Positions 31,726 through 45,391 of a DNA stretch of 46,409 nt are shown one piece after another (positions within the stretch are counted from its first letter, which is position 1; each line of letters starts with the position of its first letter). The position numbers and the translations under genes were made by a program. The notes under the pieces were generated by a model. It was not told where the DNA came from. It saw only the letters and a program-made list of their open reading frames with translations, and did no database searches. Origin of the DNA: Ignavibacteria bacterium (lineage in GTDB: Bacteria > Bacteroidota > Ignavibacteria > Tepidaquicellales > OLB5); the NCBI GenBank assembly GCA_014879675.1, contig JACSRQ010000122.1:1-46409 (forward strand), read 5' to 3'.

Positions 31726-31838
31726 TCAGATCGTTTCGTTAACTGCAAAAATACTCGAAAACTGCTTAATATAAAATGATATTAATTTAAGTATTTCCCC
31801 TTACTTATTCCCAAACTCCAGTTCATTTCTCTTTACTC

Positions 31839-31862
31839 ATTCCCAAACTCCAGTTTGGGAAT
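31839..31862. repeat. 24-nt palindrome (ATTCCCAAACT-cc-AGTTTGGGAAT)
   Basis: Perfect 11-bp arms around CC. A partial copy lies at 31807-31823 (lacking the distal arm), and an identical full copy is at 45183-45206. It is therefore a dispersed repeat. Confidence 0.9.
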
Positions 31863-31880
31863 GTAAGTAATCTTGAAGCG

Positions 31881-31960
31881 GGTGAGTAGTTGAGTTGGTG
31901 AGTAGGTAAGTAGTTGAGTTGGTGAGTAGGTAAGTAGTTGAGTGGGTGAGTAGGTAAGTA
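31881..31960. repeat. tandem array, 24-bp unit made of three 8-mers
   Basis: The 8-mers GGTGAGTA, GGTAAGTA and GTTGAGTT(G) alternate: a 16-bp partial unit (31881-31896), two full 24-bp units (31897-31920 and 31921-31944) and another 16-bp partial (31945-31960). On the minus strand the array would read YLLTNSTT repeated, but no gene context supports coding. Confidence 0.9.
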
Positions 31961-31973
31961 TCTGAATATAGCT

Positions 31974-32013
31974 CCCCTCCTTTATTGACTGCGCCAGCAG
32001 TCGTAAGGAGGGG
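31974..32013. repeat. nested hairpin with GCCA loop
   Basis: Outer arms CCCCTCCTT (31974-31982) / AAGGAGGGG (32005-32013); inner arms GACTGC (31987-31992) / GCAGTC (31997-32002) closing the loop GCCA. Confidence 0.85.
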
Positions 32014-32015
32014 AA

Positions 32016-32045
32016 AACAACAGTTGACGCCAGTCAACTGTTGTT
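32016..32045. repeat. perfect 13-bp hairpin with GCCA loop
   Basis: AACAACAGTTGAC (32016-32028), loop GCCA, GTCAACTGTTGTT (32033-32045). It shares its tetraloop with the hairpin immediately before it and lies 2 bp from it. Confidence 0.9.
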
Positions 32046-32081
32046 GGGCTGGTTAAGTGTACTTCATTCAATATTCATGTG

Positions 32082-32148
32082 TGACCACGCTGTGGTCAAT
32101 TCGACTGTCGCGGCACCTGGCTATAAATGTGTGACCGCTGCGCGGTCA
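32082..32148. repeat. pair of TGACC-type hairpins (copy A)
   Basis: First hairpin TGACCAC-gct-GTGGTCA (32082-32098); second TGACCGC-tgc-GCGGTCA (32132-32148), each preceded by AATGTG-like or ATGTG sequence. The same pair occurs at 45017-45080 with compensatory differences. Confidence 0.9.
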
Positions 32149-32192
32149 ATTTTGAATCCGTTTGCCTGACAGGAGTGTTGAGCAATCCAAAA

Positions 32193-32310
32193 GTGCCGTT
32201 AGGCACGACATATTGGTAGCTTGTGAAATTCCAATAGTCATCCCGTCCTGTACGGGACGGAATAATGTGAGGGCTCCTTTTTCTACCAATATGCAATCCC
32301 TAACGGGATT
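32193..32310. repeat. cloverleaf-like three-hairpin repeat element (copy A)
   Basis: Hairpin 1 GTGCC-gtta-GGCAC (32193-32206). Closing stem CATATTGGTAG (32209-32219) with CTACCAATATG (32283-32293), 11 bp perfect. Inside it, near-palindrome CCGTCCTGTACGGGACGG (32243-32260) with one G-T pair. Hairpin 3 AATCCC-taac-GGGATT (32295-32310). A diverged copy is at 45273-45391. Confidence 0.9.
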
Positions 32311-32358
32311 GATATTATGCATAGATACATTTACATTTGGTCAGATGAACTTCGCGCC

Positions 32359-32442
32359 TCTTGACTCTCGTTTTGTAAAAGTCTTGACTTTCGTTTTGTA
32401 AAAGTCTTGACTTTCGTTTTGTGAAAGTCTTGCGTCTGTAAG
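32359..32442. repeat. 23-bp tandem array, three copies plus a partial
   Basis: Units at 32359-32381, 32382-32404 and 32405-32427 share TCTTGACTTTCGTTTTGT with two single-base differences; a partial unit follows from 32428. It lies upstream of the cytochrome-porin gene. Confidence 0.9.
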
Positions 32443-32592
32443 ATATGTTTATAATTTTAAAATTAATCTAACAACACATTTTCCCAATACCCGTAAATAC
32501 ACACATTCCCGAAATTATCTTCTTTGTATTTTAATAAAAAATTATAGATATTAAGCAAAATTAATTCTATTTCTCAATTAAATCATAACAAA

Positions 32593-44960: not shown

Positions 44961-45016
44961 TCTAATCAAGAATATTTATCAGTAGTTTTTTGCTGCACAA
45001 TATATCTATGAATGTG

Positions 45017-45080
45017 TGACCCCGCTGGGGTCAGTTGCTTTTTTGTTACTTTCTATAAATGTGTGACCGCTCTGCGGTCA
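45017..45080. repeat. pair of TGACC-type hairpins (copy B)
   Basis: TGACCCC-gct-GGGGTCA (45017-45033) and TGACCGC-tct-GCGGTCA (45064-45080), each preceded by AATGTG. Compare 32082-32148. Confidence 0.9.
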
Positions 45081-45156: not shown

Positions 45157-45182
45157 GGCATGTTTGAAAGTTATTTTTCCTC

Positions 45183-45206
45183 ATTCCCAAACTCCAGTTT
45201 GGGAAT
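45183..45206. repeat. 24-nt palindrome, identical to 31839-31862
   Basis: ATTCCCAAACT-cc-AGTTTGGGAAT, identical over all 24 bases to the copy in the first hairpin block. Confidence 0.9.
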
Positions 45207-45272
45207 GTTGATTTATAAATTACCCATAGCTTCGACTGCTGGTGTAGTTTCTCACTCATAACAATTATCTAA

Positions 45273-45391
45273 GTGCCGTAGGCACGACATACTGGTAGAA
45301 TTAGATGTTGAAAGCTTTATCCCGTCCCGTACGGGACGGAATAGAAGAGATGTACCTCTGTTTCTACCCATATCCAATCCCTAACGGGATT
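45273..45391. repeat. cloverleaf-like three-hairpin repeat element (copy B)
   Basis: GTGCC-gta-GGCAC (45273-45285); closing stem GGTAGAA (45294-45300) with TTCTACC (45362-45368); inner perfect palindrome CCGTCCCGTACGGGACGG (45322-45339); AATCCC-taac-GGGATT (45376-45391). Element spacing matches copy A to within a few bases. Confidence 0.9.

Follow-up and report, generated by a model that had tools for sequence, protein, structure and literature searches.

The 46,409-nt stretch analyzed here (the window; positions 1 to 46,409 of contig JACSRQ010000122.1, assembly GCA_014879675.1, an Ignavibacteria bacterium of the order Tepidaquicellales) carries two copies of a three-hairpin element. We regard this element, with a probability of about 0.8, as a non-autonomous mobile DNA repeat resembling repetitive extragenic palindromes (REPs) and bacterial interspersed mosaic elements (BIMEs), whose likely partner is a Y1 HuH transposase, the product of a gene on contig C37. 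We favor such a repeat over an RNA because the element is linked to transposase genes, its copies keep no fixed orientation relative to genes, and it is absent from the corresponding loci of sister species. A preliminary description, made from the window alone, had offered both possibilities. The mobile palindromic repeat is now supported by the neighboring transposase, by a module found across the family and by absence at sister loci, while Rfam searches, open reading frame (ORF) context, sister-species absence and the transposase linkage speak against RNA.

Copies A (32193–32310) and B (45273–45391) carry a left hairpin (HP1), an inner palindrome and a right hairpin (HP3) in the same order and spacing, as the preliminary description had it, with hairpin start-to-start distances of 50 and 52 nt in A and 49 and 54 nt in B. 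The single-base difference in the inner palindrome indeed preserves pairing (T.G in A, C.G in B). When folded as single-stranded DNA, both strands of both copies gave z-scores of −4.0 to −5.2, and none of 200 dinucleotide shuffles was as stable.

The element is not limited to these two copies. A blastn search of the 3.79-Mb genome (255 contigs) with copy A returned 18 matches in 17 places, two of the matches being opposite strands of a single place on contig C37. Fourteen copies are full-length (∼118 nt; 13 found by pattern and one on C37) and three are partial (C27, C233:10989 and C70). An alignment of thirteen full copies spans 121 columns; conservation runs from the 5′ base of HP1 to about one base beyond the last hairpin, and the flanks look random by eye. 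None of 15 copies checked lies within a long ORF, and two overlap just short mechanical ORFs (94 and 112 amino acids, aa). Among the 12 copies with ORFs called on both sides, the neighboring ORFs are divergent in 3, convergent in 4 and co-directional in 5; the copies are thus intergenic and gene orientation is not fixed.

Covariation was evaluated on 30 copies, of which 7 belong to this genome and 23 to ten loci bearing homologues of the C37 transposase. These were hand-picked from the matches of a covariance model (R1) and from the genome's own copies, with several from one genome; alignment cells are not independent events, and because the model itself holds the structure, the alignment leans towards pairing. 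Mean column identity was 0.87–0.90 in the hairpins and the tails ATATNGGTAG/CTACCNATAT and 0.45–0.49 in the linkers, bearing out the drifting linkers of the preliminary description, which had named equal conservation of linkers and stems as evidence against its proposal. In the three hairpins, 95.7% of cells were paired, compared with 91.1% in shuffles; 6 of 17 pairs had changed on both sides, and 22 such cells were counted versus 4.4 in shuffles. None of 500 shuffles reached the observed paired percentage, covariation score or number of both-sides-changed cells, which supports the earlier proposal of selection on the folded form and answers its suggestion that covariation be examined across genomes.

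The outer arms CATATTGGTAG/CTACCAATATG, proposed earlier as a closing stem, gave a different result. They were paired in 91.6% of cells versus 90.0% in shuffles, and 24, 13 and 16 of 500 shuffles matched them in paired percentage, covariation score and both-sides-changed cells, respectively. Sliding the arms out of register lowered pairing to 27–51%, as expected because the arms are two inverted copies of one motif. Since the hairpins covary beyond shuffles and the outer arms barely do, the hairpins appear to be selected as pairs and the arms behave as two inverted recognition tails. Of the architecture first proposed, the paired hairpins therefore stand, whereas a conserved outer helix is weakly supported and better described as such tails.

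The preliminary description had also suggested looking for a REP-associated transposase-like gene elsewhere in the genome. A Pfam Y1_Tnp search found four strong and four weaker genes, among them an intact gene on C37 (156 aa) with a full element copy ∼50 nt downstream and a degenerate copy further on. The other strong genes lie among different hairpins: GCTCCGTAGGAGC hairpins with a TGTAGAA tail around the C54 gene; GATGCCGTAGGCATC with a ACACATTTATAGAA tail, plus GACCCC..GGGGTC hairpins, around the C129 gene; and, in a different layout, CGATGGGC..GCCCATCG alternating with CCCC..GGGG hairpins at the C43 gene (locus L012, 1150–2200). The window, too, contains hairpins of the C54 and C129 kinds; both of its element copies are accompanied by pairs of GTGTGACC..GGTCA hairpins belonging to the C129 class (32079–32151 and 45005–45080).

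We scanned the C37 protein against a collection of 84,980 species, confirmed 168 relatives and used the best 80 (48–75% identity), nearly all of them Bacteroidota or Ignavibacteria by record title. A unit was defined as a perfect hairpin of at least 5 bp followed, after a gap of 6–11 nt, by NNTAG[A/C], within 400 nt of the gene. Such units were present at 61 of the 80 loci, and 119 of the 126 units had a gap of exactly 8 nt. Reversing the flanks left 10 units, spread over 9 loci, and shuffled flanks contained 0.9 units per pass (mononucleotide) or 0.6 (dinucleotide); a stricter requirement for GGTAGAA or TGTAGAA within 1 kb left 25 of 80 loci. Raw unit density fell from 2.90 per kb at 0–150 nt from the gene to 0.08 at 800–1500 nt. 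Because far flanks are more often coding, densities were recalculated on non-coding DNA (ORFs of at least 80 aa masked), giving 3.65 gap-8 units per non-coding kb at 0–150 nt, then 2.66, 2.10 and finally 0.49 at 800–1500 nt.

Between TAG and the hairpin core that follows, distances of 24–26 nt were the most common, and the loop-to-loop period peaked at 51–53 nt (n = 124 distances; outliers at 37, 45–48 and 57–98 nt). The spacing of about 50 nt first seen in the window is therefore a family-wide ruler. Among individual loci, the upstream flank of one transposase gene (L060) holds a direct tandem array of one module with a CRISPR-like look and a period of ∼51 nt, and in another (L051, 1981–2136) an element has its middle hairpin extended into a long stem-loop, perhaps through insertion of one palindrome into another. 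The covariance-model search of this and related genomes that had been suggested earlier was also productive: R1, trained on the 13 own-genome copies only, matched 19 of 71 homologue loci searched (E ≤ 1e-3), and a broader model trained partly on ten homologue loci (R2) matched 40 of 80.

Module orientation was counted within 200 nt of the gene at the 73 loci whose flanks reach 200 nt or more on either side. Plus-strand modules lie upstream in 22 and minus-strand modules downstream in 30; for the opposite orientation the counts are 4 and 12. The gene is flanked by an upstream plus and a downstream minus module at 13 of the 73 loci, versus 2 with the opposite orientation on both sides, and at 9 of those 13 an inner hairpin stands between TAG and gene on either side. 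Judged by its layout, the 118-nt element looks like a gene-less form of this arrangement, with the same inverted ends and one central hairpin between them. As the C37 gene has the element downstream only, this shared-ends pattern holds for part of the family.

The flanked loci also fit an autonomous IS200/IS605-type insertion sequence (IS) with these hairpins as its ends and the 118-nt form as its gene-less derivative, a rival we consider unlikely yet the best of the alternatives. The enzyme is of the IS type: three proteins scored 58–75 bits against NF033573 (IS200/IS605; cut-off 55) and only 33–41 bits against NF047646 (REP transposase; cut-off 80). The ends here are inverted, however, unlike the single-strand ends of IS608 and ISDra2, and the 17 repeat places contrast with one gene, which is single-copy at high identity (its relatives in the genome are 52, 45 and 38 percent identical at best). 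An IS and the non-autonomous repeat that we favor differ mainly in what moves.

Other comparisons of the enzyme gave the same affiliation. A profile built from 22 relatives finds solved IS200/IS605-type transposases, and the predicted model of one homologue (L045; predicted local distance difference test score, pLDDT, 91.6) has ISDra2 and IS608 as top matches (TM-score by query 0.55–0.61), with the REP transposase 4er8 at rank 30. Across 81 proteins, Y---Q--HH was present in 79, DH[IVLF]H in 75 and WQxG in all 81; five contained internal stops. The accessible text of a published survey gives TnpA_Y1 subclass 1.2 the motifs Y---Q--HH, DH[IV]H and WQ, a size of ∼150 aa, low copy number and occurrence in Bacteroidetes (Quentin et al. 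2018, PMC6006769). By this signature the C37-type enzyme is assignable to subclass 1.2, an assignment from motifs, size and taxon.

Repeat and enzyme vary together. When the two tail letters before TAG were mapped on a tree of 82 proteins, 12 changes were required, compared with 35 under shuffled labels, and 0 of 200 shuffles were as low. The C37 gene falls amid GG tails and the C54 gene, whose label was set by hand, amid TG tails; the TC group showed no significant clustering (48 of 500 shuffles as low). The tree was a quick one with many weak forks and 10 of 82 rows unlabelled, near-copies in it help the clustering of tail letters, and it was built with the C129 and C43 proteins omitted.

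This covariation bears on a second rival, in which the palindromes are passive, spreading through recombination or slippage at replication, and the transposase is an unrelated passenger in repeat-rich intergenic DNA. Tandem copies do occur (e.g. L048 and L057), unrelated repeats gather in sister spacers, and the distance decay derives partly from coding density; against these, the enrichment remains on non-coding DNA, and neither an exact 8-nt gap nor co-variation of tails with the protein tree is expected of a passenger. We judge this explanation improbable.

Within the order, 44 genomes were sampled, 33 with a transposase homologue and 11 without; homologues of >60% identity were confined to the genome itself and G035 (63%). 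R2 matches (E ≤ 1e-3) were present in 24 of the 33 homologue-bearing genomes versus 2 of the 11 others (Fisher p 0.003). Among the matches listed, those of at least 90 bits occurred in the genome itself only, the best elsewhere reaching 56.8. Of 90 weaker matches taken from those listed in other genomes, 18 have a transposase match within 500 nt, compared with 0.11 expected, and these spread over 7 of 24 genomes; opposite-strand duplicates, some overlapping rows and short transposase fragments were left out of this set. A blastn search with copy A found no copy in 12 same-genus genomes, 7 of which gave weak R2 matches (best 43.6 bits, versus 72–110 for the 14 full own copies, both strands).

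Spacers lacking the element were found at both loci in sister species. Between the conserved genes flanking copy A, 728 nt in this genome correspond to 6 nt in G005 and G010 and 28 nt in G004, and in G012 the spacer is 65 nt versus 765 here. Other spacers at this locus are longer (218 nt in G008, 652 in G009 and 800 in G002), and some of the long ones are of other sequence, as compared for G002 and G008; five further genomes, where no single contig matched both flanks at a length that was compared, are left out. At the copy B locus, ∼50 nt separate two genes in G003 versus 547 here, G005 and G008 lack the spacer together with most of the upstream ORF, and the interval is longer than here in G002 and G012. 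R2 found no element in 13 sister loci save one partial match (16 bits, E 0.02) in the G003 copy-B spacer (L169). Sister spacers carry other, unrelated repeats as well.

Absence from both loci is one of several observations at odds with a structured non-coding or cis-regulatory RNA (riboswitch-like, terminator or mRNA stabilizer), a reading we rejected as very improbable although the hairpins covary and fold well and the accessible text of PMC6006769 allows secondary effects for transcribed REPs: no Rfam family reached the gathering threshold across the window except a tRNA at the contig start, a search of 32100–32400 allowing E-values up to 1 added just one CRISPR-repeat match, below threshold and at copy A (17.6 bits, E 0.35), the neighboring ORFs are variably arranged, and the module is enriched at transposase genes.

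Several findings weigh against a REP-like mobile repeat partnered by the C37 enzyme. A total of 17 places is low for a REP family, for which the accessible text of PMC2817692 gives a usual copy number above 100 per genome. No conserved target tetranucleotide next to the outer hairpins was evident by eye in the own-genome copies. Tagged hairpins are absent within 400 nt at 19 of 80 transposase loci, and the C37 gene itself has the element on one side only. The raw distance decay is largely a coding-density effect, amounting to about sevenfold on non-coding DNA, and the window, which lies far from any transposase gene and was chosen for its repeats, holds 1.1 units per non-coding kb. In the order, R2 matches are missing from 9 of 33 homologue-bearing genomes and present in 2 of 11 homologue-free ones. 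The 728 nt around copy A hold further repeats and their junctions are not nucleotide-precise, so a single-element insertion is not isolated; no precise single-element empty site was obtained at the sister loci, the extra DNA in this genome exceeding element size. Because that DNA holds other repeats, the comparison demonstrates spacers without the element rather than a lone jump of one element. Finally, cleavage and mobility are inferred from sequence.

For the REP-like repeat that we favor, we propose the following mechanism. The element consists of two inverted modules, each comprising a 5-bp hairpin, 8 nt, GGTAGAA and ∼25 nt to the next hairpin, with the central hairpin common to both. The enzyme would bind the folded single-stranded hairpin and, by homology with IS608, whose hairpins are bound and whose cuts fall at set distances from them, may cut near TAG, a site that follows one hairpin by 10 nt and precedes the next by ∼25 nt. 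At the right end of IS608, the cut lies ∼10 nt from the hairpin. At its left end, positions in the accessible text of PMC5934647 place the hairpin at about +20 from the cut. Acting on single-stranded DNA, the enzyme would disperse ∼50-nt or composite units into intergenic DNA, most likely during replication, when DNA is single-stranded.

Among known systems, the repeat resembles REP, BIME and REPIN (paired-REP) elements associated with TnpA_REP (REP-associated tyrosine transposases, RAYTs; group 2 in E. coli, group 3 in Pseudomonas and Stenotrophomonas): in both, short palindromes are dispersed in intergenic DNA, form inverted pairs and tandem arrays, cluster at a Y1 HuH transposase gene, and change class with the enzyme. 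Here, however, TAG follows a 5-bp hairpin core at a distance of 10 nt on the 3′ side, the hairpin period is ∼52 nt and the enzyme belongs to the IS200 type (class 1), whereas REP enzymes are class 2. Canonical REPs carry GTAG or GTGG 0–2 nt 5′ of the hairpin, according to the accessible text of PMC6006769; either tag directly precedes HP1 in 0 of the 13 aligned own-genome copies. The present repeat is thus REP-like in behavior and lacks the canonical 5′ GTAG.

With IS200/IS605 elements (IS608, ISDra2), the system shares a homologous transposase fold and, at a fixed spacing from its hairpins, a motif resembling a cut site. The ends of IS608 and ISDra2 are hairpins on one strand; here the layout is inverted, gene-less repeats outnumber the gene and each class has one gene copy in this genome. 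Subclass 1.2 agrees with our enzyme in motifs, size of ∼150 aa, low copy number and Bacteroidetes host, but Table 1 of the survey enters REP as ‘no’ for it (PMC6006769), a description from which the tagged hairpins at 61 of 80 loci depart. That survey's automatic search, supplemented by manual inspection for some subclasses in the text available, sought GTAG or GTGG 0–2 nt 5′ of the hairpin; the layout seen here, with TAG on the 3′ side, would escape such a search. GTAG- and CGTC-tagged repeats (Di Nocera 2013, PMC3733652) are likewise tagged palindromes, the CGTC family being reported in Bacteroidetes too; in the part of the description compared, they differ in tag position and by a 5′ foot rule in place of the 8-nt ruler.

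Six short repeat strings had no occurrence among 5.39 million open-access papers, a scope that excludes subscription papers, figures, supplements and ISfinder. No such RAYT/REP system in Bacteroidetes/Bacteroidota, and no report of a hairpin with TAG 10 nt to its 3′ side in place of GTAG at the 5′ foot, was found in the accessible text of the open literature (including, for the former, PMC6006769, PMC3733652, PMC2817692, PMC12306157 and PMC8266576).

The features mapped in the window are listed below. Other repeats lie close to both copies: degenerate direct repeats with 8-nt spacing to the left of copy A (31881–31973; GTGAGTAG/GTAAGTAG/GTTGAGTT), with blastn matches elsewhere in the genus; a 23-nt repeat, TCTTGACTYTCGTTTTGTRAAAG, three times in tandem to its right (32359–32432); and, at 45180–45210, a CATTCCCAAACTCCAGTTTGGGAATG-type palindrome of another dispersed class, with many 28–35-nt matches (93–100%) across same-genus genomes. 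At the contig start (1–68, minus strand) lies a truncated tRNA gene (Rfam tRNA, 58 bits), where ARAGORN reports none.

Features of the two element copies and associated hairpins, in window coordinates
Feature	Position	Strand	Remark
Stretch with copy A missing in two sister species, 728 nt	31784..32511	.	Aligned flanks 6 nt apart
Second-class hairpin TGACCGC..GCGGTCA with CACACATTTATAG tail, gap 8	32132..32148	-	Class of C129 transposase gene; module scan
Copy A left hairpin (HP1), GTGCC GTTA GGCAC	32193..32206	+	Module with gap 8; covarying
Copy A left tail, ATATTGGTAG	32210..32219	+	NNTAG starts exactly 8 nt past hairpin core
Copy A middle hairpin (inner palindrome), CCGTCCT GTAC GGGACGG	32243..32260	+	Covarying
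Copy A right tail, CTACCAATAT (inverted ATATTGGTAG)	32283..32292	-	Module scan
Copy A right hairpin (HP3), AATCCC TAAC GGGATT	32295..32310	-	Inverted module; covarying
Second-class hairpin (C129 kind) near copy B	45064..45080	-	Module scan
Copy B left hairpin (HP1), GTGCC GTA GGCAC	45273..45285	+	Module scan
Copy B left tail, ATACTGGTAG	45289..45298	+	Module scan
Copy B middle hairpin (inner palindrome), CCGTCCC GTAC GGGACGG	45322..45339	+	Covarying
Copy B right tail, CTACCCATAT	45364..45373	-	Module scan
Copy B right hairpin (HP3)	45376..45391	-	Module scan

More broadly, and only tentatively, subclass 1.2 enzymes together with arrays of hairpin, 8-nt gap and NNTAG may constitute a distinct and widespread single-stranded DNA mobile system of Bacteroidota, intermediate between IS200/IS605 transposons and domesticated REPtrons, in which TAG would be the cut site, a ∼50-nt segment with one hairpin would be the smallest unit able to move, and the three-hairpin element would be the inverted composite of that unit. 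A transposase subclass recorded as partnerless gains a candidate substrate with strict geometry, in a phylum on whose REP systems we located little literature. How the substrate is recognized, how the cut site is chosen and how an IS200 transposon turns into a domesticated REP system become directly testable questions, and the system may account for many of the short ‘xxCCGTAGGxx’ intergenic hairpins in these genomes.
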